A DNA stretch of 34,741 nucleotides from a virus: the IMG/VR virus record IMGVR_UViG_3300032073_000100, positions 1 through 34,741 of that record; one strand, written 5' to 3'. Both the position numbers and the translations under genes were made by a program. The notes under the pieces were generated by a model that was not told where the DNA came from, searched no databases, and saw nothing but the letters and a program-made list of their open reading frames with translations. Of the stretch, positions 3 to 34,741 are shown in pieces. The first letter of the stretch is position 1, and every line of letters begins with the position of its first letter.

Positions 3-2177
3 CTACCGCAAGACGTTAAGTCTCAAGTTTATGATGTTTTAATAACAGGTGGAGTTGATGTTCCAACAGTTGACGGAGTTACCGACAAGGAATCAGTCCT
101 CAATCAAGTATTTGGAGAAAATTGGTCAGACCAATCTGAGGAGGTTCTTAGAGGCGTCTTAGATGTATTCGCTGCAAATGACGGCACTCCCATTCGTTAT
201 CCAGAAGGAGATCCAAGAAACGAAGATGCAGACATTGGCGAGGAAGGGCCAGAGGTAGGAGACGGAGCGCCACAAGACGGAGATCCAGAAGATCAGGGAC
301 AAGAAGCGGGAGAGGAGCCACCCGAAGAAGAGTTACCTGAGTTACCTCCTCCTGATGATGATTCAGAAAACGATATTCCTCCCGGCCCCTCGCAAGAAAC
401 AGATACTGGACAAGAAGATGAGTTCCCTCCTTTCCCTCCTTTCCCAGATGCAGAGGACGATTCAGATCAGCAACCCGAAGATGATTTTCCTGAGCTACCT
501 CCTCCTAGCGACACGCCTGAAGATGAAGATCAGGGAGAGAGCGAATTACCGCCTGATGATGAAATAGATTTACCTCCTACTGATGACGAAACCACAGATC
601 AATCTTCAGAGTCACAGGAAGAATCAGAAGCAGAGTCAGAATCAGAAAGTCAATCAGAGGCAGAGGCAGAAGCAGAAGCAGAGGCAGAAGCAGAGGCAGA
701 AACAACAACAGAGGCAGAGGATCAGTCTGATGAACCGACCGATCAATCTCAAGATTTACCACCCGGAGAGTTGCCCCCAGAAGAAGATCCGCAACCTCCG
801 ACAGACGAGCAACCAGAAGATTTACCACCAACAGATTCACCACCCGGACAACAACCAACGGGAGACTTGCCGCCGGGAAATCAAACCCCTACAGGCGAGC
901 CTTCTGGCGAAGACGATTTTCCTGACTTGCCACCCGGAGACGGAGACGGAGACGGAAATAATGACGAGGACGATGACGATATGAGCATAGGAGATTTTCT
1001 AGGCGACATTTTTAGCGAAGGGCTAGGAGCCGCAGCGCAAGCTCTAGGAGGAAGCGCATCAATTAACAACGTAATTGACGTAGCCGCAGCAGCCTTACAA
1101 GATCGAAAAGCGCAAGAGTATTATACGGACGCTTTGCGAGATGCGAGCGATGCTGAATTAGCGTTCTTAGAACGTATGATTGCTCGTCAAGAAGTTTATC
1201 GACCGTTTTATAATGTTGGCACAGGCGAGAAAGCTCCTTTTCTTGGCTATCAAATAAACAAGCTTAGAGATTTAGTTAACAGAGAACCTGATTTTCCTGA
1301 CTCAAGAAGAATAATCCCAGAGGTTGACATTCTGCCCTTGATTGAAGAAGCGGCAGCGATTGAAGCGGTAGATCCGACAGTGAACCAAATCAACGTAGCT
1401 GATATGCTTTTGGATTTAAACACCGGAAATGTGCCTAGTCCGTCTATGTTAGACATTGGTACGGTTCCTGATCCTCTTAGAACAGACGTAAATTTAATTA
1501 ACCCTTTCAACCCACAAGATCCAGCCTTACGATTCTTACAGGATGAAGGTAGACGAGCTATCGAATCGGCTGCCGCTGCAAAAGGGCGATTAAACACAGG
1601 AGGGACTCTTCAAGAATTACAAGAGCAGGCCATTGGGACAGCAGCAAAATATGCCGGAGACTTGGCTGACATTGGAAGAGTTCAGGATCAAGCTCGTTTA
1701 GACAGAGATCAACAGTTCTTCTCTCAAGCTCTTGGTTCTGGTGGAGAGATGTTTGATCGTGAATCAACCGCAGACCAACAGTTCTACTCGCAACTACTTG
1801 GTTCAGGTACAGAGGGATTTGGACGAGAAATGGATCGGCTAGGGGCTATCTCAGACGCTCAACGATTCCAAGACGATCAAGCTCTTCAGGCTGACATTAG
1901 AAGATTTGAGTCTGAGGCTGACCTAGCAGGAACGGAATTTGATATGTCTCGCTTTGCAAACCAAGACGCAATCGCTAGAGATCAGACGCTTATAGATCAA
2001 TTAAGTGGATTGGTAGACATTGGAAGCGTTGGGGCTGGTGGCCTCACAGGGAATGCTTCTACCTTTGCAGGGTTGGGAAAAAGTGCTTATAGCGAACTCG
2101 GAGACTTGAGAGCATACGAAGGATTACAAAGAGGAAATAGATTTTCAAACATCGTTGGCGGTTTGTTTGGAACTTAA
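3..2177 (+). CDS. Ejection/virion protein, allele A (5' partial)
   Basis: The frame is open from base 3 to the stop at 2177 with no start, so the N-terminus lies off the window; at least 724 residues remain. The order is a short N-terminal stretch, the shared motif IRYPEGDPRNEDADIG (about residues 63-80), an acidic Pro/Ser/Glu-rich linker including a run of Ser-Glu-Ala-Glu repeats (about 195-240), and a conserved alanine/aspartate-rich C-terminal domain beginning MSIGDFLGDIF near base 981. It is a diverged version of the gene at 30968-33376: the C-terminal halves align closely and the linkers do not. Its place ahead of two further ejection-type genes recalls the P22 gp7-gp20-gp16 cluster, so I infer a protein carried in the virion and ejected with the DNA. 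That role is inference; no enzymatic motif is visible. Confidence 0.8.
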   Translation, partial: LPQDVKSQVYDVLITGGVDVPTVDGVTDKESVLNQVFGENWSDQSEEVLRGVLDVFAANDGTPIRYPEGDPRNEDADIGEEGPEVGDGAPQDGDPEDQGQEAGEEPPEEELPELPPPDDDSENDIPPGPSQETDTGQEDEFPPFPPFPDAEDDSDQQPEDDFPELPPPSDTPEDEDQGESELPPDDEIDLPPTDDETTDQSSESQEESEAESESESQSEAEAEAEAEAEAEAETTTEAEDQSDEPTDQSQDLPPGELPPEEDPQPPTDEQPEDLPPTDSPPGQQPTGDLPPGNQTPTGEPSGEDDFPDLPPGDGDGDGNNDEDDDDMSIGDFLGDIFSEGLGAAAQALGGSASINNVIDVAAAALQDRKAQEYYTDALRDASDAELAFLERMIARQEVYRPFYNVGTGEKAPFLGYQINKLRDLVNREPDFPDSRRIIPEVDILPLIEEAAAIEAVDPTVNQINVADMLLDLNTGNVPSPSMLDIGTVPDPLRTDVNLINPFNPQDPALRFLQDEGRRAIESAAAAKGRLNTGGTLQELQEQAIGTAAKYAGDLADIGRVQDQARLDRDQQFFSQALGSGGEMFDRESTADQQFYSQLLGSGTEGFGREMDRLGAISDAQRFQDDQALQADIRRFESEADLAGTEFDMSRFANQDAIARDQTLIDQLSGLVDIGSVGAGGLTGNASTFAGLGKSAYSELGDLRAYEGLQRGNRFSNIVGGLFGT

Positions 2178-2191
2178 AGGAGCAAGATAAA

Positions 2192-3850
2192 ATGGCGAAC
2201 AGACTTCAAAGAATCATGGCGATGGATCAAATGATGCAAAATCGCAATATGCCTCAGCAGGGGATGCAAAGTGTTTTCAATCCCACAACAGGAACATTTG
2301 TGAACGTCCCCTTTCAGACTGATCCTAATTTCAAAGGGCGCAGAACGGTTATGACTCCCTCTGGCCCTCAAGCACTTCCGGGATTTCAAGGACAAGAAAA
2401 TCCTTACAGGGCATTAGGTCGAGGCGCAAGAAACTTACTAGGCAACTTGTTTGGTCGTGGACAACGTAGACGGCAAAACAGAAAAGCAGATCAATCTTTG
2501 CAATCTCAAGAGGAGATTCTAAGAGAGCGTTATCGTCAGGCTGGCCCAGATGGACAGATGAATACTGATGACGATATTTTGCCTGAGTTGGTAACGAAAG
2601 CTGCAACAGCCTCTCCAGTTGTCGTGAAAGACGGAAAAGGTGAAATTACTTTCACGCAAGAAAGAATGCCCGGAGTTTTTAAAGAAGCAGGAAGCTACGA
2701 AAACAGAATCAAGCAATTGATGGAAAATCAAGGTATTAACAGAGGAGAGGCAGAGCGAAATCAAGCAGAAGCAATTAAGAAAGGAATGGATTTAGATAAC
2801 TCTGGTTATGTTGATGATTCAGAAGCGTTTGCATTTAACAACCCAACGACTTCTGGACAGCCCCTTGAGATTCCTGCTTTCCGAAGCGGCAGAGAAGAGA
2901 AATTAAGAGAAATAGAGGAAAGAATCAATCGTCCAATTATGCGTGGCCCTGCGCCCCTGCCTACCTTTGACATTTCTCAAATGTCGAGGGGACAAGTCAA
3001 ATACGGTGATCCAAAAACATTTACTTTACCGAATGGGGATCTAGCAGTTTCAAGAACTGTTACAAAAGGAAATCAATCAGGATTAGAAATCATAGATCCG
3101 AGTAGTGGCAGAGTAATTTTTTCAAACGCTCCCGGTACAACAAGCTCTAAAACTAGCAGCGCAACTCCACAAGCTAATCCGTTTGCTAAAAAAATGGATC
3201 GTGAAATAGACTTTGATGCAGCTATTTTGTTGCCCAAAGACGAACAAGAAAAATATTTAGATCCAAATATTTCAGACGCAGAATTTAAAAAGTTAAACAA
3301 AAAAGCAAAAGTATTATTAGCCAAAACACCTAAAAAAGAAAAACCAACTGAAGGGATGTTAAACTCAAAAACAGCTTTTACTCAAATGACTTTAGCGGCT
3401 CCGACTTTGAAAAGATTAGAGCAAAACGCAAAGCTAATGGAACAGTTAGGTGGTTTTTCAGGGGCAATGGCAAGAAACTTTAGGTCAATGGCTGACCCAG
3501 ATGAAAGGCTTTATCTTCAAGCAGCAGATGCTTGGATAAGGGCAAAACTAAGGAAAGAATCCGGGGCAGCAATTGGTGAAAAAGAGATGGAGCAAGAATA
3601 TGCAACATTCTTCCCACAACTCAACGACACTCCAGAAACCATTGCAGAAAAAGCTAGACAAAGAGAAGTCTTAACAAGACAAATGGGAATAAATGCAGGA
3701 GAAATTAAAGAAACAAAACAAGATAAAGAACAGACCACTGAGACTGAAACTAACAACGCTTTGCCAACTGTAAGCACTCAAGAGCAATATGACGCTTTGC
3801 CTAGTGGAGCAAAATATTTAGAAGACGGACAAGAATTTAGGAAGCCTTAA
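2192..3850 (+). CDS. Ejection/virion protein with EF-hand-like loop, allele A
   Basis: 552 residues, preceded by AAGGAGCAAGATAAA and ATG, a strong ribosome site that is identical ahead of the second copy at 33391. The N-terminus is Met/Gln-rich (MANRLQRIMAMDQMMQ) and followed by Arg-rich stretches. Near residues 197-208 DLDNSGYVDDSE fits the 12-residue EF-hand calcium loop (acidic positions 1, 3 and 12, Gly at 6). The C-terminal half is Lys/Glu/Gln-rich and predicted helical. It sits between two other putative ejection proteins and is assigned as a virion/ejection protein by gene order only. The 3' half is nearly identical to the second copy while the 5' half differs more. No catalytic motif is recognised. 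Confidence 0.8.
   Translation: MANRLQRIMAMDQMMQNRNMPQQGMQSVFNPTTGTFVNVPFQTDPNFKGRRTVMTPSGPQALPGFQGQENPYRALGRGARNLLGNLFGRGQRRRQNRKADQSLQSQEEILRERYRQAGPDGQMNTDDDILPELVTKAATASPVVVKDGKGEITFTQERMPGVFKEAGSYENRIKQLMENQGINRGEAERNQAEAIKKGMDLDNSGYVDDSEAFAFNNPTTSGQPLEIPAFRSGREEKLREIEERINRPIMRGPAPLPTFDISQMSRGQVKYGDPKTFTLPNGDLAVSRTVTKGNQSGLEIIDPSSGRVIFSNAPGTTSSKTSSATPQANPFAKKMDREIDFDAAILLPKDEQEKYLDPNISDAEFKKLNKKAKVLLAKTPKKEKPTEGMLNSKTAFTQMTLAAPTLKRLEQNAKLMEQLGGFSGAMARNFRSMADPDERLYLQAADAWIRAKLRKESGAAIGEKEMEQEYATFFPQLNDTPETIAEKARQREVLTRQMGINAGEIKETKQDKEQTTETETNNALPTVSTQEQYDALPSGAKYLEDGQEFRKP
3416..3542. repeat. 127-bp exact repeat shared with the window's end
   Basis: Bases 3416-3542 are identical to 34615-34741, and the match stops exactly at the last base of the window. 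The preceding base differs (A at 3415, G at 34614). It lies inside the second ejection-protein gene. It is the identical tail of a longer diverged duplication (2192-3542 against 33391-34741). Confidence 0.95.
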
Positions 3851-10436: not shown

Positions 10437-10610
10437 TGACCCAACGTGACGGAATAAGAAAACCGTTATCCCAGCGCACCATCTGGACAAAAGGGAAACT
10501 AAGAAATGGATAAATCTGTAGTTTAGAGACTCGTTATTCAATATTGCTATTTCCTCCGTCAAGATTTTAAAAAATCGCTCGTCGGTTAAATGGTTTATGG
10601 GAGAGAGAAA
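10437..10610. other. 174-bp gap before replication gene
   Basis: A gap in a block where genes otherwise overlap. I see no convincing ORF, only very short frames. An imperfect hairpin (ACGG/CCGT around 10452-10470) and AT-rich stretches are present, but no clear promoter or terminator. Confidence 0.4.
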
Positions 10611-13677: not shown

Positions 13678-14155
13678 CCTAGATCAGTTGTACGAAGAAA
13701 TCAAAGCAGACGAGGGACTTGTCACAAACGACGAGGGCGAGTCTCTGATCTATAGGTGTACCGAGGGCTATTTGACTTGTGGCATAGGGCATAAAATCGT
13801 AGAAGGAGATGCAGAGTATGGATTCGTGGAAGGCGATACTGTACCGATGGACTCGGTTAAGAAACATTTTGAGAAAGACGTTCAAACAGCTATTGAAGAC
13901 TGTCGAGCAATTTATGGCGAGGGATTTGATTCGTGGAGCGAAGAACGCTGTCATATCGTTACTAACATGGCTTTTCAATTGGGTCGAAAAGGTTTATCTG
14001 GCTTTAAGAAGTTTAATGCGTACTTTCAAGAAGGAGCTTATGGCGGTGCGGCGTTGGAAATGATGGACAGCCGTTGGGCAATTCATCAAACCCCGAACCG
14101 AGCTACAAGACTGAAAGATCGAGTTCTAGCTTTAGCTGATGACCCTAGCCGATAA
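13667..14155 (+). CDS. Endolysin, T4-type lysozyme
   Basis: 162 residues from ATG 13667; a TTG further upstream is less likely. Catalytic pattern: Glu16 in KADEG, then Cys31 and Thr37 (C-5aa-T), followed by GIGH (39-42). The segment between Glu and Cys is longer than in T4 lysozyme by about six residues. The C-terminal domain has NMAFQLG, FKKFN and MMDSRWA..TPNRATRL, the usual lysozyme end. It cleaves the peptidoglycan glycan chain and lacks a signal peptide, so it needs the holin-like proteins just upstream. A fragment of a second, divergent lysozyme lies at 6074. Confidence 0.93.
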   Translation: MAVNLDQLYEEIKADEGLVTNDEGESLIYRCTEGYLTCGIGHKIVEGDAEYGFVEGDTVPMDSVKKHFEKDVQTAIEDCRAIYGEGFDSWSEERCHIVTNMAFQLGRKGLSGFKKFNAYFQEGAYGGAALEMMDSRWAIHQTPNRATRLKDRVLALADDPSR

Positions 14156-14549
14156 AGCTGATAAGTTGATAGAGTTGTGGGTGAGGGAACTGGCTCAAGA
14201 ATCAGCCAATCCCTACAAAGCTCAGAGCCTTTTAGACGGACACTTTGCCCTTGAGGTAGGAGGTAAGCGAAATCCTTTGAAGTCATACATCAACGCAAAG
14301 GAAACAAAATCACCGCCCAGGGACGTTATCAGCAGCGATTTGATTTTAATTGACTCGATCATTGGTCAGATTAGCAAAGTAAACAGTAAGTACCCTCTAG
14401 TATTAAAGTGGTTTTACAGCACAGGAGACATGAAGCGAGTAGCGAAAGAGGCAAACGTCAGCCTTACGAAAGCGCGAGAACTGAAGAATACAGCATTTGA
14501 TTTGGTGCAAGTTTTATTAGATGAAAAACTAGGAAAGAACTATGCGTAA
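14139..14549 (+). CDS. Late transcription regulator, Q/RinA-like
   Basis: 136 residues, overlapping the lysozyme end by 17 bases. The C-terminal half YPLVLKWFYSTGDMKRVAKEANVSLTKARELKNTAFDLV (about 85-123) reads as a sigma-like helix-turn-helix, as in phage antiterminators of the Q type and RinA/ArpU activators. Such proteins switch on the late operon. The late operon starts 1.5 kb downstream behind a leader with strong hairpins, a fitting target. A small terminase is the alternative, but a better candidate lies next to TerL. Confidence 0.6.
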   Translation: MTLADKADKLIELWVRELAQESANPYKAQSLLDGHFALEVGGKRNPLKSYINAKETKSPPRDVISSDLILIDSIIGQISKVNSKYPLVLKWFYSTGDMKRVAKEANVSLTKARELKNTAFDLVQVLLDEKLGKNYA

Positions 14550-14646
14550 ATTATGGGAAAAGATTAAAAAATGGTTGGGCTTGACCTCTGAGGTAGAACC
14601 CCCAAAAGCCAAGCCCGGAAAAGCTAAGCGGAAGAAAGCCCTCTAG
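14542..14646 (+). CDS. 34-aa basic peptide
   Basis: ATG overlaps the upstream gene's end, with AGGAAAG before it. The peptide starts amphipathic (MRKLWEKIKKWLGL) and ends Lys/Pro-rich (PPKAKPGKAKRKK). It overlaps the convergent RHH-like gene by 23 bp. It is probably real from coupling; the function is unknown. Confidence 0.45.
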   Translation: MRKLWEKIKKWLGLTSEVEPPKAKPGKAKRKKAL

Positions 14647-14788
14647 CAAAATCTAACAGCTTTTTCCTGAACTGAGGGAGGACATAAACCTCAACCTTCT
14701 GAAGTCCCTGCCGTTTGCGTTTCAGCCTGTGGCGTTTAACCCGGTCACGATTGAGCCGGGCTTTTTTCTCTTCTTTGGTTTCGTTCAT
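14624..14788 (-). CDS. Ribbon-helix-helix-like small protein
   Basis: 54 residues, with GGAGG upstream of ATG. The N-terminus is very basic (KARLNRDRVKRHRLKRKRQG); KVEVYVLPQFRKKLLDFA (31-48) reads as a beta-strand followed by a helix, as in RHH transcription factors (Arc/MetJ class). It may bind the operators at 15738-15776, but this is speculation. It is the last gene of the small leftward cluster. Confidence 0.6.
   Translation of the reverse strand: MNETKEEKKARLNRDRVKRHRLKRKRQGLQKVEVYVLPQFRKKLLDFARGLSSA
14740..14767 (+). terminator. Putative rightward terminator
   Basis: CCCGG (14740-14744), 11-nt loop, CCGGG (14756-14760), then C and six T. It fits the end of the rightward middle operon. 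It lies antisense inside the RHH-like gene, so the same bases code for its Arg/Lys-rich N-terminus. Confidence 0.45.
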
Positions 14789-14790
14789 GC

Positions 14791-14979
14791 CTAGCCTCCT
14801 TCTAAAGCCGCTTGAGCCTCTTTCTTGGCTCGATTAACTTCAATTTCAGATAAGTTTCCAGCAAACAATTCGGCAACCGCCAAGGCTCTTTGTGACTGCT
14901 CTTCAGTAGGTGCTGAAATCGCAAGTTTAAGTGCCAAAACAAGCGCATCGTAAAGATCAGTTAATGGTTTATTTTCCAT
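14791..14979 (-). CDS. Small helical protein of unknown function
   Basis: 62 residues, alanine/leucine/glutamate-rich and probably all-helical (DALVLALKLAIS, EEQSQRALAVAELFAG, NRAKKEAQAALEGG). Its start overlaps the upstream gene by 11 bases. It looks like a small phage protein often found in accessory clusters; I know no function. Confidence 0.75.
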   Translation of the reverse strand: MENKPLTDLYDALVLALKLAISAPTEEQSQRALAVAELFAGNLSEIEVNRAKKEAQAALEGG

Positions 14980-15193
14980 AAAGATTGATCCTCTCTCTTT
15001 CCAACCAATCTGAAATTGTCATGTTTCGCTCTTTTTCGCCCATTGAGGCTATGTAAGCATCATGTTTGGGAGCTTGCTCAACCACACTGAATTTGCCAGT
15101 TTTTGAAAAAGAGATAATATACTTTTTGCCATCTTTTAAAGATCGCAATCGTTTTAACTCTTTGTTTGCCTGATGAATATTTTTAAAAATCAT
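14969..15193 (-). CDS. Small basic protein of unknown function
   Basis: 74 residues, with ATCAAGGGGAA five bases before the ATG. A basic N-terminal helix (HQANKELKRLRSLKDGKKY) is followed by a short beta region (YIISFSKTGKFSVV) and a C-terminal helix (SDWLERERINL). No known family. Confidence 0.75.
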   Translation of the reverse strand: MIFKNIHQANKELKRLRSLKDGKKYIISFSKTGKFSVVEQAPKHDAYIASMGEKERNMTISDWLERERINLYGK

Positions 15194-15221
15194 TTTATTT
15201 CCCCTTGATTTAGTTAACTTA

Positions 15222-15599
15222 TTAACAACCCATCCTTTGCTCTGCTCTCGCCCATGACTGTTCCTCTGCTTCTAACATTTTCATCTTTGAAAGTTGCTGC
15301 TCTAATTCTTCACGATGCTTGGTTTCCAGGCGTGAAATGTCATAATCTTGGACAGTCGTTCTCCCATCGCATTTAGGGCAATTAACATCATAAACGCCTG
15401 AAAAATAATTTTTGTAGAACTCGTCCCGGTCATCCGGGTGAATTTCGTCAGCAGTCATCCCATTAAATGCAGGATTGCCACAAGTACCCTCACCTTTACA
15501 GGTCGGACAAACTACCCATTTTTTAGGAAGTTTGTATTCTGTTGTATCTTCCGATTGCCAGCTTCCATCTATAATTAAATATTCAATGTCGCTATCCAT
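15222..15599 (-). CDS. DnaJ-type zinc-finger protein
   Basis: 125 residues from ATG 15599, chosen because ATCAAGGGGAA lies five bases before it. CPTCKGEGTC (about 31-40) and CPKCDGRTT (about 73-81) are CxxCxG modules as in the DnaJ zinc-binding domain. The C-terminal third is a coiled helix (LETKHREELEQQLSKMKMLEAEEQSW). There is no J domain, so it is a stand-alone zinc finger, perhaps a chaperone adaptor or nucleic-acid binder. It is the first gene of the leftward cluster behind the control region. Confidence 0.75.
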   Translation of the reverse strand: MDSDIEYLIIDGSWQSEDTTEYKLPKKWVVCPTCKGEGTCGNPAFNGMTADEIHPDDRDEFYKNYFSGVYDVNCPKCDGRTTVQDYDISRLETKHREELEQQLSKMKMLEAEEQSWARAEQRMGC

Positions 15600-15644
15600 A
15601 CTCTTTCCCCTTGATGTATTTAAGTTACAAGGATGATAATACAC

Positions 15645-15658
15645 CATTACAGGTAATG
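15645..15658. promoter_or_regulatory. Palindrome CATTAC-AG-GTAATG
   Basis: Perfect 6-2-6 inverted repeat about 45 bases upstream of the zinc-finger gene's start, in the expected promoter area. A candidate operator. Confidence 0.45.
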
Positions 15659-15679
15659 CAATTAATTTAGTGCAATTAA
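15657..15679. repeat. Direct repeat TGCAATTAA x2
   Basis: Two exact 9-mers at 15657-15665 and 15671-15679, period 14 bp, next to the palindrome and inside the AT-rich leader of the leftward cluster. Confidence 0.5.
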
Positions 15680-15737
15680 ATAAGGTATTTTTCTGCACCA
15701 AGTTTCGCGCAGTCAATAACACATAATTATTTGCGCG

Positions 15738-15776
15738 TCAGTGTCGTGATACCACTTTTTCAGTATCGTGATACCA
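15738..15776. promoter_or_regulatory. Twin operators TCAGTRTCGTGATACCA
   Basis: Two 17-bp repeats (15738-15754 and 15760-15776) with a single difference and a 22-bp period, about two helical turns. The core of the second, GTATC-GT-GATAC (15763-15774), is a perfect palindrome; the first has one mismatch. This is the layout of two dimer sites bound on the same DNA face, as for phage repressors. Confidence 0.65.
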
Positions 15777-15788
15777 GTTAAAAATAAG

Positions 15789-15861
15789 CCCTACCCCTAC
15801 CCCTAAACCTACTCTCCCTCCTACCCTTACACCTACCCCTATACCCCCCCTACCCAAAAAC
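15789..15861. repeat. C-rich, G-free tract (G-quadruplex-prone on minus strand)
   Basis: 73 bases without a G, built from irregular CCCTA/CCCCTA units with eight runs of three or more C, one of seven. On the minus strand the runs are GGG or longer, spaced by short loops, which meets the usual intramolecular G-quadruplex rule more than once. Confidence 0.8.
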
Positions 15862-15962
15862 GTCTACAGCCCTTTGTTTATGTACGTTTCAAGGAAAGTG
15901 CTTGTGAAAGAAAAAGGTTTGCAACACGTTTTTTATAGTGTAAGGTATGGAAAGGTGCGATT

Positions 15963-15994
15963 GCTGACTCTTTCTCCCCTTGAGGGGGGTCAGC
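15963..15994 (+). promoter_or_regulatory. Leader hairpin 1
   Basis: Outer stem GCTGAC (15963-15968) with GTCAGC (15989-15994) and inner stem CCCC-TTGA-GGGG (15976-15987). No T-run follows, so it is not a simple terminator; RNA structure or a protein site is more likely. Confidence 0.45.
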
Positions 15995-16037
15995 CCACCT
16001 AAATTCATGCGAAACCCTTGCTCGATGATGGCATGAT

Positions 16038-16062
16038 GGGGGGACGGCTCTCCCTTCCCCCC
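16038..16062 (+). promoter_or_regulatory. Leader hairpin 2
   Basis: GGGGGG (16038-16043), 13-nt loop, CCCCCC (16057-16062), ending about 20 bases before the first late-gene ATG. It could block or shape initiation, or act with a Q-type factor. Confidence 0.45.
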
Positions 16063-16081
16063 TGATTGTTAGGAAACAAAA

Positions 16082-16216
16082 ATGACAAGAAAAGTGGAAC
16101 GCAAGCTCAAGAAAATAGCGAAGTCGTTGAGTAAAACTAGCCGGACTCAAAAAAACCAGGCAAACGAAATTAATAAAATTGTCAAAAAAAAGGTTAAATC
16201 GAGGCGCAGGAAATGA
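16082..16216 (+). CDS. 44-aa lysine-rich protein
   Basis: ATG with AGGAAAC upstream; ATGA overlap with the next gene. About 40% Lys/Arg (MTRKVERKLKKIAKSLSK..., ending KSRRRK). First gene of the late operon; a DNA- or RNA-binding or minor virion role is possible. Not recognised. Confidence 0.55.
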   Translation: MTRKVERKLKKIAKSLSKTSRTQKNQANEINKIVKKKVKSRRRK

Positions 16217-16554
16217 GCAGAAGAATTTTCGTAAACCCGCACCGCCAGAACACAACTAACAGGGTTTATTCTCAGAACGTAGATACTGACATGCTCTACA
16301 AAGTGGATTTCAGCGCAGAAGCATCAGAGCTTTCAACTTCTGTCAGTTCGGTGGCGGCTGAAAGCAAGGGCCGACAAAACATCACCCTGACTACGCCCTC
16401 TGTCAGTTCCAACGTGGCAAGTTTTTACGCCAGTTCAGCAAATTCCGGGGATGGTGTCATCAAGGTCACTGCAACCTACGCCAGTGGAAAAAAAAGCGTC
16501 CAAGGCATTAAGCTGAAGATCGACAACCTCGCAGATCAAAGACTGTTTGCATGA
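16213..16554 (+). CDS. Small beta-rich virion-type protein
   Basis: 113 residues. Ser/Thr/Val-rich beta pattern (YKVDFSAEASELSTSVSSVA, GVIKVTATYASGKKSVQGIKLKI), like small Ig-like decoration or head proteins of phages. The N-terminus is basic. It ends in an ATGA overlap with the coiled-coil gene. Structural role inferred from composition and position. Confidence 0.65.
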   Translation: MSRRIFVNPHRQNTTNRVYSQNVDTDMLYKVDFSAEASELSTSVSSVAAESKGRQNITLTTPSVSSNVASFYASSANSGDGVIKVTATYASGKKSVQGIKLKIDNLADQRLFA

Positions 16555-16742
16555 GCGACGAACTCAAGGGAAGAATTGAGATACTGGAACAGCAGCGTAA
16601 TGACGCTATGAATCAATCGGTATTGTTGGGCGGTCAGATCAAGCAGATGATCGAACAAATCGAAGGATTACAAAAGAAGCTAAAGGATTTAGAAGATGGC
16701 AATGACCCGAGCGCAGACGAATCGGAAGATCAGACAGGATAG
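16551..16742 (+). CDS. 63-aa coiled-coil protein
   Basis: Heptad-like helix (LKGRIEILEQQRNDAM, IKQMIEQIEGLQKKLKDLED) with an acidic tail (GNDPSADESEDQTG). Coupled by ATGA upstream; its end overlaps the terminase small-subunit-like gene by 47 bases. Function unknown; possibly a packaging accessory. Confidence 0.6.
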   Translation: MSDELKGRIEILEQQRNDAMNQSVLLGGQIKQMIEQIEGLQKKLKDLEDGNDPSADESEDQTG

Positions 16743-28481: not shown

Positions 28482-29291
28482 ATGTTTGGCTATCGAGTAT
28501 TAGGTTTTGGTGTAGGTAAAGCTCCTAGAGCACCATACACTGCCGAATATCTTATTGTTGCTGGAGGCGGTGGTGGCGGGAGTCAGCTAGAAGGATCTGG
28601 AGGTGGAGGCGCTGGTGGTGCTTTAGATAGCTCGTTCACAGCAACACCCCTTCAAGGATACACTATAACAATAGGGGCTGGAGGTGCAGCAGCACTTGGT
28701 CAGGGTAATTCAGGGGCCAATTCCAGCATCGACTCAACAGCAGCTACAGGGGGAGGCGGGGGATCGCCCGGAAACGCTGCTGGATCTTCTGGAGGCTCTG
28801 GGGGAGGGGGGGGAGGATCTCAACATAATAATGGAGCCGGTGGTTCAGGAACAAGTGGTCAAGGAAATGCTGGAGGAGCCGGTAGCACTGGAAAGAGAGG
28901 CGGTGGTGGTGGAGGAAAAGGCTCTGCTGGTTCAACCCCACCGGGAAATGGTGGTACTGGAATAGATTGGAAATCCTTGGGAACTTCTTATGCTTCCGGG
29001 GGAGGAGGAGCATCAGCCACGGCTAGCAATGGATCTGCGGCTGCTGGAGGAGGAACTGATGGATTTACCTATCCGGGACATGGAAGCCAATATGCGGCAA
29101 GCAACGCTGCTGCCAATACCGGAGGTGGAGCAGGAGGCACTAATGGAACCTATGGATCAGGTGGGGCAGGGGGTAGCGGAGTAATAATTATCAGATATGC
29201 TGGCGGCCAGCAAGCTACTGGAGGCACAATAACTTCTGCTGGAGGATACACCTATCACACTTTTACTTCATCTGGAACATACACAGGCTAA
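28482..29291 (+). CDS. Glycine-rich receptor-binding/adhesin protein
   Basis: 269 residues, about 40% glycine. EYLIVAGGGGGGSQ (23-36) and the closing GSGVIIIRYAGGQQATGGTITSAGGYTYHTFTSSGTYTG are the signatures of the glycine-rich domain used at phage fibre tips (polyglycine sandwich, as in T-even gp38-like adhesins). It follows the fibre gene and is likely its tip or partner. The many GGN codons make it prone to slippage and recombination. Confidence 0.85.
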   Translation: MFGYRVLGFGVGKAPRAPYTAEYLIVAGGGGGGSQLEGSGGGGAGGALDSSFTATPLQGYTITIGAGGAAALGQGNSGANSSIDSTAATGGGGGSPGNAAGSSGGSGGGGGGSQHNNGAGGSGTSGQGNAGGAGSTGKRGGGGGGKGSAGSTPPGNGGTGIDWKSLGTSYASGGGGASATASNGSAAAGGGTDGFTYPGHGSQYAASNAAANTGGGAGGTNGTYGSGGAGGSGVIIIRYAGGQQATGGTITSAGGYTYHTFTSSGTYTG

Positions 29292-30971: not shown

Positions 30972-33376
30972 GTGAACGCGGATCTCCAACGCCAAGAAAT
31001 AATCGTGCAGAAAATTGGGCTTCAGATATTAGTGAAGCCGAAAAAAAAGGGCAGATTGATTTTGATGCTGATCTTTTTGAAGCTGGGCTGCAAGCAAATG
31101 ACGCACAAATGCAACGCCTTTATCTTGAAAAAATGCTTTCTGATTGGGAAGCCGGAATAGGAGAAATAAATAATCCTTTTTATGTCGGCGAAGAACGCTG
31201 GCAAGACATTGAAGGAAATGATCTAACGGCAAAACAAGAAAAAATGCTAGCTTGGGAAGCCGCGTTTCCTGAAACCTATTTAATTCTGAAGCGCATATTT
31301 GGCGAAGATATGGAACGCCAGACTAGCCGAGACAGCTTTCAGGAAACATACTCAGAAACAACAGGAACCGAGTTAAAAGAAAACGAATATACAGAGTGGC
31401 TAAAAGACTCCGATCTTTCCGATGACTTAAAAAGAACTGTCTGGAGTGCGCTAGAGCGCGGCGTAAATATTGAATCAAATAGTGACGGCGTTGTTGATAA
31501 AGCATCTGTTTTGGAGCAGGTTTTCGGGGATTCCTGGGCAGAGTTGCCGGAAGAAACATTGCGAAAAGTGCTTTATGGGTTGAGTGCCGACGATGGGCAA
31601 CCCATTCAATATCCCGAAGGAGATCCTAGAAACGAAGATGCTGATGTAGGTGAGCAGCCTACGGAAGTTGATGAAGAAGGCGACGCTCCACAAGAAGATC
31701 CACCGGAAGAAGAGCCTCCACCACAAGAAGATCCGCCACAAGAAGATCCACCGGAAGAAGAGCCTCCATACGACGATGAGCCTCCATACGACGATGATCC
31801 TTTTCCCAGAGAAGGGCCGCCAGAAGACCAATCTCCTTTTCCTTTTCCACCAGACGATCCTCCACCAGACGATCCTCCACCGGAAGAAGATCCAGAAGAC
31901 GAGGAAGATGAACTTCCTCCAGATGAGGATATTGACCTTCCTCCACAAGATGGCGGTCCACCAGATGAAGATGATCCACCACCAGACGATCCAGAAGAAG
32001 AAGCTCCAGAGGCTCCTACGGAAGAAGGACCGGGAGATGGAGAAGGACCGGGAGATGGAGAAGGACCGGGAGATGGAGAAGGACCGGGAGAGGAAGAAGG
32101 CCCCGGAGAGGAACCAACAAATCAGGAGCCTCCCGGAGAAGCTCCACCGGAAAATCAACCAGAAGCTCCACCGGAACAAGATCCTTCAGGAGAAGACGAG
32201 TTTCCAGAACTACCACCACCCGCAGATGCACCACCAAGCGGAGGAGAAAATGACGATGACGAGGAATCAATAATGTCAAAGATCGGAGATTTTTTTAAAG
32301 ACATCTTCACCGAAGGAATTGGAGGAGCCGCAGCGCAAGCTCTAGGAGGAAGCGCATCAATTAGCAATATTGTAGACGTTGCGGCTGCCGCAGCGATTGA
32401 TCGAAAAGCGCAAGAGTATTATACCGATGCGTTGCGAGATGCCTCAGATCAGGAACTAGCCTTTTTAGAAAGCATGATGGCTCGTCAAGAAGTGTTTAGG
32501 CCGTTTTATAACGTAGGCACTGGCGATAAAGCTCCGTTTACTGGTTATCAAATAAACAAGCTCAGAGATTTAGTCAACAGAGAACCTGATTTTCCTGACT
32601 CAAGGAGGATAAGCCCAGAGGTTGACATTCTGCCCTTAATTGAAGAAGCAGCAGCAATCGAGGCGATTGACCCGACAGTAAATCAAATCAACGTCGCTGA
32701 TATGCTTTTGGGATTAGATACCGGAGAAATCCCGGAAGCAATGAGGACAGACGTAAATTTAATTGATCCTTTCAATCCTGAAGATCCTGCCTTACGATTC
32801 TTGCAGGATGAAGGTAGACGAGCCATTGAAAGTAGTGCTGCTGCCAAAGGGCGATTAAATACAGGAGGGACCCTTGAAGAATTAAGCAGACAAGCTATTG
32901 GCACTGCCGCTCAATACGCAGGAGACTTAGCCGACATTGGGAGGGTTCAGGACGCAACTCGGTTGGACGCAGATCAACAGTTCTATACGCAGTTACTTGG
33001 TTCAGGCAGAGAAGGATTAGGTCGGGAAATGGATCGGCTAGGAGCTATTTCAGACGCTCAACGATTCCAGGACGATCAAGCTCTTCAGGCAGATTTGCGA
33101 AGATTTGAGTCTGAGGCTGACAGAGTAGGCGAACAGTTTGATATGTCACGCTTTGCCAACCTGGACGCGATGTCGAGAGATCAAACGCTCATAGATCAAT
33201 TAACCGGACTTGTGGACGTAGGGCGAATTGGTGCAGAAGGACTGACGGGGAACACTTCAACTTTTTCCGACCTCGGAGGCGGCATTTACTCGGGGATGGG
33301 CGATCAAACAGCATATGAAGGGTTAAAACGAGGAGATCGATTTTCAAACATTGTTGGCGGTTTGTTTGGAACTTAA
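30968..33376 (+). CDS. Ejection/virion protein, allele B (complete)
   Basis: 802 residues, ATGA overlap at the start. Three parts: a globular, charged N-terminal region (1-220), an acidic proline-rich linker (about 225-430) with PPEEEPP, PPYDDEP and GPGDGE repeats, and a conserved domain (about 436-802) with GGSASISNIVDVAAAA, RKAQEYYTDALRDASDQELAFLE and LVNREPDFPDSRR. The N-terminal part and linker are unusual in length. It is the full-length counterpart of the partial gene at the window's start. As for allele A, an ejected virion protein is the best inference. An internal ATG at 32273 with GAGGA upstream could make the last domain alone. Confidence 0.82.
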   Translation: MSERGSPTPRNNRAENWASDISEAEKKGQIDFDADLFEAGLQANDAQMQRLYLEKMLSDWEAGIGEINNPFYVGEERWQDIEGNDLTAKQEKMLAWEAAFPETYLILKRIFGEDMERQTSRDSFQETYSETTGTELKENEYTEWLKDSDLSDDLKRTVWSALERGVNIESNSDGVVDKASVLEQVFGDSWAELPEETLRKVLYGLSADDGQPIQYPEGDPRNEDADVGEQPTEVDEEGDAPQEDPPEEEPPPQEDPPQEDPPEEEPPYDDEPPYDDDPFPREGPPEDQSPFPFPPDDPPPDDPPPEEDPEDEEDELPPDEDIDLPPQDGGPPDEDDPPPDDPEEEAPEAPTEEGPGDGEGPGDGEGPGDGEGPGEEEGPGEEPTNQEPPGEAPPENQPEAPPEQDPSGEDEFPELPPPADAPPSGGENDDDEESIMSKIGDFFKDIFTEGIGGAAAQALGGSASISNIVDVAAAAAIDRKAQEYYTDALRDASDQELAFLESMMARQEVFRPFYNVGTGDKAPFTGYQINKLRDLVNREPDFPDSRRISPEVDILPLIEEAAAIEAIDPTVNQINVADMLLGLDTGEIPEAMRTDVNLIDPFNPEDPALRFLQDEGRRAIESSAAAKGRLNTGGTLEELSRQAIGTAAQYAGDLADIGRVQDATRLDADQQFYTQLLGSGREGLGREMDRLGAISDAQRFQDDQALQADLRRFESEADRVGEQFDMSRFANLDAMSRDQTLIDQLTGLVDVGRIGAEGLTGNTSTFSDLGGGIYSGMGDQTAYEGLKRGDRFSNIVGGLFGT
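32024..32092 (+). repeat. 18-bp tandem repeat, about 3.8 copies
   Basis: Unit GAAGGACCGGGAGATGGA, exact in three copies from 32024 to 32077, then diverging. It codes for GPGDGE in the linker. Exact copies point to recent slippage. Confidence 0.85.
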
Positions 33377-33390
33377 AGGAGCAAGATAAA

Positions 33391-34741
33391 ATGGCAAACA
33401 GACTTCAAAGAATCATGGCGATGGATCAGATGATCCAGAATCGTAATATGCCTCAGACCGGCACACAAAACATTTTTGATCCGACAAGTGGTCAATTTGT
33501 AAAAGTCGAATATCAGACTGATCCGAATTTCAAAGGGCGCAGAACTGTTATGACTCCCTCTGGCCCTCAAGTGTTACCGGGTTACCAAGGAGTAGAAAAC
33601 CCCTATCGACAACTAGGTCGAGGAGCAAGAAATCTACTAGGCAACTTGTTTAATCGTGGACAGCGACGAAGGGCAAACAGAAAAGCAGATCAATCTTTGC
33701 AATCTCAAGAAGATATTTTGCGAGAGCGTTATCGTCAGGCTGGCCCAGATGGACAGATGAATACCGAGGACGATATTTTGCCTGAGTTGGTAACGAAAGC
33801 TCCGACAGCCTCCCCGATTGAGGTTAAAGACAAAAAAGGGGAAATAACGTTCACTCAGGAACGATTCCCAGGAATGTTCGAAGAGGCAGGAAGTTACGAA
33901 AACCGAATCAACCAGTTGATGGAAAATCAAGGCATCAGCAAAGTAGAGGCAGAGCAAAATCAAGCAGACGCAATCAGTCGAGGAATGGATTTAGACAATT
34001 CTGGTTATGTCGATGACTCGGAAGCGTTTGCATTCAACAACCCGATGACGGCTGGACAACCTCTTGAGATTCCTGCTTTCCGAAATGAGCAAGAAGAGAA
34101 ATTAAGAGAGCTAGAGGAAAAAATCAATCGTCCGATTATGCGTGGCCCTGCGCCCCTGCCTACTTTTGACATTTCTCAAATGTCGAGGGGACAAGTCAAA
34201 TACGGTGATCCAAAAACATTTACTTTACCTAATGGAGATTTAGCAGTTTCAAGAACTGTCACAAGAGGAAATCAATCAGGATTAGAAATCATAGATCCGA
34301 GTAGTGGCAGAGTAATTTTTTCAAACGCTCCCGGTACAACAAGCTCTCAAACTAGCAGCGCAACTCCACAAGCTAATCCGTTTGCTAAAAAAATGGATCG
34401 TGAAATAGACTTTGATGCTGCTGTTTTGTTGCCTAAAGACGAACAAGAAAAATATTTAGATCCAAGTATTTCAGACGCAGAATTTGAAAGATTAAACAAA
34501 AAAGCAAAAGTATTATTAGCTAAAACACCTAAAAAAGAAAAACCAACTGAAGGGATGTTAAACTCAAAAACAGCTTTTACTCAAATGACTTTAGCGGCTC
34601 CGACTTTGAAAAGGTTAGAGCAAAACGCAAAGCTAATGGAACAGTTAGGTGGTTTTTCAGGGGCAATGGCAAGAAACTTTAGGTCAATGGCTGACCCAGA
34701 TGAAAGGCTTTATCTTCAAGCAGCAGATGCTTGGATAAGGG
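33391..34741 (+). CDS. EF-hand-like ejection protein, allele B (3' partial)
   Basis: 450 codons, running off the window's end. The start context AAGGAGCAAGATAAAATG equals that of allele A. It differs from allele A in the first ~245 residues (for example GTQNIFDPTSGQFVKVEYQTD against GMQSVFNPTTGTFVNVPFQTD) and is nearly the same afterwards. The EF-hand-like loop DLDNSGYVDDSE is kept. On a circular map it would continue into 3543-3850. Confidence 0.85.
   Translation, partial: MANRLQRIMAMDQMIQNRNMPQTGTQNIFDPTSGQFVKVEYQTDPNFKGRRTVMTPSGPQVLPGYQGVENPYRQLGRGARNLLGNLFNRGQRRRANRKADQSLQSQEDILRERYRQAGPDGQMNTEDDILPELVTKAPTASPIEVKDKKGEITFTQERFPGMFEEAGSYENRINQLMENQGISKVEAEQNQADAISRGMDLDNSGYVDDSEAFAFNNPMTAGQPLEIPAFRNEQEEKLRELEEKINRPIMRGPAPLPTFDISQMSRGQVKYGDPKTFTLPNGDLAVSRTVTRGNQSGLEIIDPSSGRVIFSNAPGTTSSQTSSATPQANPFAKKMDREIDFDAAVLLPKDEQEKYLDPSISDAEFERLNKKAKVLLAKTPKKEKPTEGMLNSKTAFTQMTLAAPTLKRLEQNAKLMEQLGGFSGAMARNFRSMADPDERLYLQAADAWIR
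34615..34741. repeat. 127-bp exact repeat of 3416-3542 at the window's end
   Basis: Identical to 3416-3542 up to the last base. See the entry for the first copy. Confidence 0.95.

Follow-up and report, generated by a model that had tools for sequence, protein, structure and literature searches.

A G-free, C-rich repeat tract at the border of a hypervariable island between a candidate Q-type antiterminator gene and the late promoter of uncultured marine phages

The window analyzed here, an IMG/VR virus record of 34,741 nucleotides with a lambda-like plan, contains a 73-base C-rich tract that is a real and compositionally exceptional feature. The tract marks the border of a hypervariable island that is situated between a candidate Q-type antiterminator gene and the late promoter of uncultured marine phages. 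It is most likely a border spacer of this accessory island, unusual in composition and either insulating or neutral.

The genes of the window include a P22-type portal, a Sak-type annealing protein, a RecE-like exonuclease, and, at 10590, a lambda-O-like replication gene. Its two ends (1025-3542 and 32323-34741) are homologous with 82-87% nucleotide identity but not identical, which reflects either a true two-gene duplication or the wrap of a circular map assembled from two co-occurring strains, in which case the genome would measure about 31.2 kb.

On the plus strand, positions 15789-15861 comprise 73 bases with zero G and 41 C (56% C), including eight C-runs of at least three, and form the sole G-free stretch of at least 35 bases within the whole window. 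When the window was shuffled 200 times with preserved dinucleotides, the longest G-free or C-free run reached at most 65 bases (mean 42), and the largest absolute difference between C and G per 78 bases was 31, compared with 41 observed. The 78-base stretch with the highest excess of C over G in the window is the tract region itself. Both the run length and the C excess lie beyond the shuffle maxima. The original prediction had described the G-free tract and its eight C-runs accurately. The C-rich part proper spans 15789-15855, since the terminal AAAAAC is no more than ordinary flanking sequence.

The original prediction had also described irregular, telomere-like CCC(C)TA units. C-rich repeats on one strand are indeed present, but they are better read as a single degenerate CCCTAC array, for which the periods given by TRF are 6 and 12. 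Set in a single register of six, the units read CCCTAC, CCCTAC, CCCTAA, ACCTAC, TCTCCC, TCCTAC, CCTTAC, ACCTAC, CCCTAT, and ACCCCC, followed by C(C)CTACC; these approximately 11 units are about 68% alike. The self-identity at lag 6 is 0.60, a value matched by 79 of 5000 composition-preserving shuffles (best of lags 4-12), and the period of six is therefore only moderately significant given the composition of the tract. Seven distinct alleles of the tract were found in the phage group, which vary between C7 and C8, and none of them is shortened by whole repeat units.

The predicted capacity of the minus strand to form G-quadruplexes (G4s) was borne out in silico. C-runs are retained in 7/7 distinct tract-bearing alleles, and a canonical G4 motif (G3+N1-7, that is, four G-runs of at least three with loops of at most seven) is present in 6/7, having been lost in L015. 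This motif (GGGTAGGGGGGGTATAGGGG) is the only one that the motif scan found on either strand of the window. The G4Hunter score reaches -2.28 at 15832, and scores of at least 2.0 are very rare in phages, at about 0.00005 per kb (PMC8036883). The window's highest G4Hunter score, 2.4, is located elsewhere, at 28792-28816 within a glycine-rich coding gene (28482-29291).

The tract and its neighborhood are composed of the following features.

14139 to 14549, plus strand: candidate Q21-like antiterminator gene of 136 amino acids, left border of the island (weak profile and fold matches)
14624 to 15722, minus strand: accessory genes of the island, read leftward, among them that of a 54-amino-acid basic protein (gene calls and relatives)
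15636 to 15660, minus strand: putative leftward island promoter with a -10 like TATTAT, overlapping the palindrome ATTACAGGTAAT (found by eye; conserved in relatives)
15741 to 15776, no strand assigned: pair of palindromic operators GTRTCgtGATACCA at a distance of 22 bases (conserved in island types A and C)
15777 to 15918, no strand assigned: module of 141-142 bases from the operators to the late promoter, in type A only (alignment and type C junctions)
15789 to 15855, plus strand: C-rich, G-free array of about 11 worn CCCTAC hexamers, G-rich on the minus strand (composition, TRF, and alleles)
15836 to 15855, minus strand: sole canonical G4 motif of the window (motif scan)
15919 to 15946, plus strand: putative late promoter TTGCAA-16-TAAGGT (block TAAGGT/TAATCT), strongly conserved in all relatives with the region
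15947 to 16084, plus strand: leader of the late RNA, with a pair of conserved hairpins of which the second resembles a terminator (comparison of relatives)

The product of the gene at 14139-14549 matches the Q-like antiterminator family phrog_79 with an E value of 0.012 in the window and 2.2e-4 in the relative L021. Foldseek aligned its model to Q21 and to sigma region 4 (E 0.3-1), and no match was obtained in Pfam or NCBIfam. The PHROG and fold results agree in weakly suggesting a Q21-like antiterminator. From this gene to the late promoter, 14550-15918 is a hypervariable island of swappable small leftward genes that carry one common promoter/leader motif. The last of these genes (14624-14788) encodes the 54-amino-acid basic protein, which is present in nearly all islands seen, shows a weak MazE-like match, and is possibly a ribbon-helix-helix protein. 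For the operator sequence, no convincing further copy was found within the window. The module to the right of the operators consists of a short A-rich left piece, the tract, and a 63-base right flank that is common to type B islands. Conservation of the leader hairpins extends to 11 relatives, and the terminator-like stem shows a compensatory change; the leader has no match in Rfam.

The tract had been placed between operators and the late operon, ahead of the terminase genes, which is right and can be refined: it is situated to the right of the operators and about 60 bases to the left of the late promoter, the genes on its left are leftward accessory genes, and the large terminase gene begins about 1.1 kb beyond it. 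Both putative promoters, of the island and of the late genes, are divergent and point away from the tract, so that neither is expected to transcribe it, and its RNA could play a role only through read-through or antisense transcription. The original prediction also proposed a transcription pause element; for the late transcript this is unlikely, given that the tract precedes the late promoter.

A terminase search yielded 33 IMG/VR loci, among which four arrangements lead from the Q-like gene to the late promoter. Type A (operators, tract, and right flank) is found in the window and in L002, L032, L004, L005, L010, L015, L016, and L017; L003 ends at the tract. In type B (L007, L009, L014, and L040), an alpA-like gene replaces the operators and the tract next to the same right flank, and the shared sequence starts inside the tract's right end, TATACYCCCCCTAC. 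The alpA-like gene matches Phage_AlpA with an E value of 0.006, which falls short of Pfam's cut-off, and an excisionase family with 0.001. Its last codons enter the tract-shared flank in L007 (743-982), and the copy in L014 stops just short of it. Type C (L011, L012, L018, L030, and L049) consists of the operators, eight bases, and the promoter, and type D (L013 and L046) has no island.

The original prediction took absence of the C-runs at this place in close relatives as an argument against it, and such absence was found in part of them. L011, L012, L013, and L018, whose terminases are 88-93% identical, share the late promoter and lack the tract, and two shorter contigs, L046 and L049, are like them in this. 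Siblings thus carry an alpA-like gene, a direct junction of operators and promoter, or no island in its place; the tract is therefore dispensable and optional within the phage group. An exact search retrieved it from eight IMG/VR contigs, all within this group. No relative was found when 84,980 bacterial and archaeal genomes were scanned by terminase alignment, and the exact first 23 bases of the tract are absent from the same genomes, so that no link to a host or an integration site emerged. Among 50,697 phage records there was no similar DNA and no tract, and the searches for Rfam families and tRNAs gave no match.

The island types are scattered over the terminase tree, where type A accounts for four changes, two of them forced by well-supported branches. 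Moreover, loci with near-identical terminases carry different types (L012 type C and L013 type D; L007 type B and L011 type C). The island has therefore been exchanged repeatedly between lineages. In pairs of type A loci with diverged terminases, the tract differs by 3.0%, the right flank by 7.2%, and the fourfold sites of the terminase by 32%, which means that the tract is about 10 times less diverged than the fourfold sites. This could be due to constraint or to recent cassette transfer; as islands move between lineages, low divergence was not taken by itself to prove selection. L004 and L005, for instance, are 22% apart at fourfold sites and alike in operators, tract, and flank except for one C, and the shared block points to transfer.

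A different picture is given by two further copies of the tract:

L016, 3051 to 3123, and L017, 620 to 693: tract copies differing only inside the tract over 1.67 kb

Over the 1.67 kb surrounding the tract, these two near-identical phages are distinguished solely by one change in C length and three substitutions, which all fall within 27 bases of the tract (for the substitutions, the probability of this by chance is 0.006). They may result from hypervariability, local conversion, or sequencing or assembly error in the C-rich tract.

Our favored reading, tentative as it is, is that the module acts as an insulator between the island and the late promoter, of Rho type if it is transcribed. The module would shield two divergent control regions from each other. 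Stray rightward RNA from the island, either antisense or read-through of the Q operon, would expose a long, G-free, unstructured C-rich stretch on which Rho could be loaded, and transcription would then be ended ahead of the late promoter and leader. The added length of the module would furthermore distance the operators and their binders from the late promoter. The reading is suggested by the likeness to rut sites, which are defined by a C>G bubble, regular C spacing, and lack of structure (PMC6407284, PMC9160355). Only the rightward RNA is C-rich and hence the candidate rut strand; it has 42 C and 2 G in 78 bases, by a wide margin the most extreme value in the window, and is rich in C over G and poor in G over the approximately 78 nt typical of rut sites. 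It is predicted to be fully unstructured (0 kcal/mol), with C regularly spaced as in the 11-13 nt pattern of rut sites. The insulator reading is further suggested by the position exactly between operators and late promoter with a module length constant to one base across type A, by a C excess over G of at least 38 per 78 bases in 7/7 alleles, and by the lower divergence of the tract relative to its flank and the fourfold sites. On the other hand, both putative promoters face away from the tract, sibling phages do without it, its low divergence may equally stem from cassette transfer (as in L004 and L005 and in the scatter of types on the tree), and the tracts of L016 and L017 differ within an identical neighborhood. 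In addition, the hairpin that RhoTermPredict expects within 150 nt downstream is missing under the strict stem rule, with a leader hairpin from about 15954 in range.

Nearly as likely as the insulator is a neutral simple-sequence spacer. A CCCTAC repeat would have expanded by slippage where the island ends on its right, later decayed, and been carried along with the module in island exchange. The worn period-6 array, its C7/C8 length variation, the tract-less siblings with their types scattered on the tree, and the L016/L017 differences inside the tract all fit such an origin. Furthermore, the tract's right end also occurs beside alpA in type B, which makes the array look like an extension of the shared flank. 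Against a neutral spacer speak the divergence between lineages, which is lower than that of the adjacent noncoding flank (3.0% versus 7.2%), and the lack of any allele shorter by whole units. It is unlikely that the tract instead works as a DNA element, in which a minus-strand G4 or a plus-strand i-motif would stall replication forks or promote recombination at the island border in the manner of the pilE G4 of Neisseria (PMC3547852). The sole canonical G4 of the window, of a score class very rare in phages and retained in 6/7 alleles, does sit at a border with repeated cassette exchange; yet islands without the tract (types C and D) were exchanged too and the motif is gone in L015. Moreover, the pilE system requires a promoter that fires at the G4 and makes a small RNA (PMC3547852). 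The search here found no promoter that would fire through the tract, and a promoter scan covering sigma-70-like sites listed none in 15717-16735. That the tract is a pilE-like, phage-borne G4 that raises the rate of cassette swapping beside the late promoter is very unlikely.

The register of six with its approximately 11 units, adjoining twin palindromic operators in an island that encodes a small basic, possibly ribbon-helix-helix protein, could also serve as a series of binding sites, with one site for every one or two hexamers, for a protein of phage or host origin that acts on the neighboring operators or on the late promoter. This is quite unlikely, as the units are only about 68% alike and the basic protein also occurs in the tract-less islands of L009, L011, L014, and L018. 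The replication origin or packaging start (pac) suggested by the original prediction has in its favor a repeat array about 1.1 kb ahead of the large terminase gene, but becomes highly improbable with a dispensable tract that close siblings (L011, L012, L013, and L018) lack. The GC-skew check proposed for this region showed no inflection of cumulative skew at 15.8 kb beyond the tract's own composition, and the lambda-O-like replication gene is 5 kb away. Finally, a Pro/Thr-rich coding linker, whole or relic, is barely conceivable. Its frame (AGC CCT ACC CCT ACC...) is stop-free through the tract, but it lacks a start codon downstream of the in-frame TGA that precedes the tract, the C7/C8 alleles shift it, and the neighboring alpA of L014 ends before the shared sequence. 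The missing start codon and the frame shifts indicate that the tract is noncoding and contradict an intact gene.

A TRAP-like reading of the minus strand, with TAG about every six bases and a nearby gene with a DnaJ/anti-TRAP-like zinc ribbon, was considered and rejected. The matches are far below cut-offs, the minus strand of the tract has no known transcription, and the occurrence of the zinc-ribbon gene does not follow that of the tract, as it is unseen in the islands of L010, L015, and L016 and present in the tract-less L018.

If the tract is insulating, it shows how phages may accept foreign regulated genes beside the late switch and leave that switch undisturbed; should it fold as a G4, it would offer a natural system in which to test whether cassette exchange in phages is linked to G4s.

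We know of no counterpart of the C-rich tract in the Q to pR' region of lambdoid or Stx phages. The order of Q, late promoter, and leader terminator is that of lambdoid phages, as described for Stx phages (PMC6266700), and the present locus shares with it a Q-like gene, a late promoter, a leader terminator, and variable DNA nearby; unlike in the Q to pR' region, the accessory genes are here placed in the interval from Q to the promoter, in leftward orientation. With CCCTAA-type telomere-like repeats, the tract has in common C-rich hexamers that are all on one strand, but its unit is CCCTAC, and it is worn, internal, and restricted to a single locus, with no terminal role seen. Like the pilE G4 of Neisseria gonorrhoeae (PMC3547852), it is a G4-prone sequence beside a locus of frequent cassette exchange; it differs in that no sRNA promoter was found, siblings without it exchange too, and its folding is predicted. 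Rut sites with their C>G bubble resemble it in being about 78 bases long, C-rich, G-poor, and unstructured, with regular C on the candidate RNA strand, whereas the tract is more extreme (zero G) and repetitive, and its rut role is predicted. The tract may be described as a rut-like, G4-prone simple repeat.
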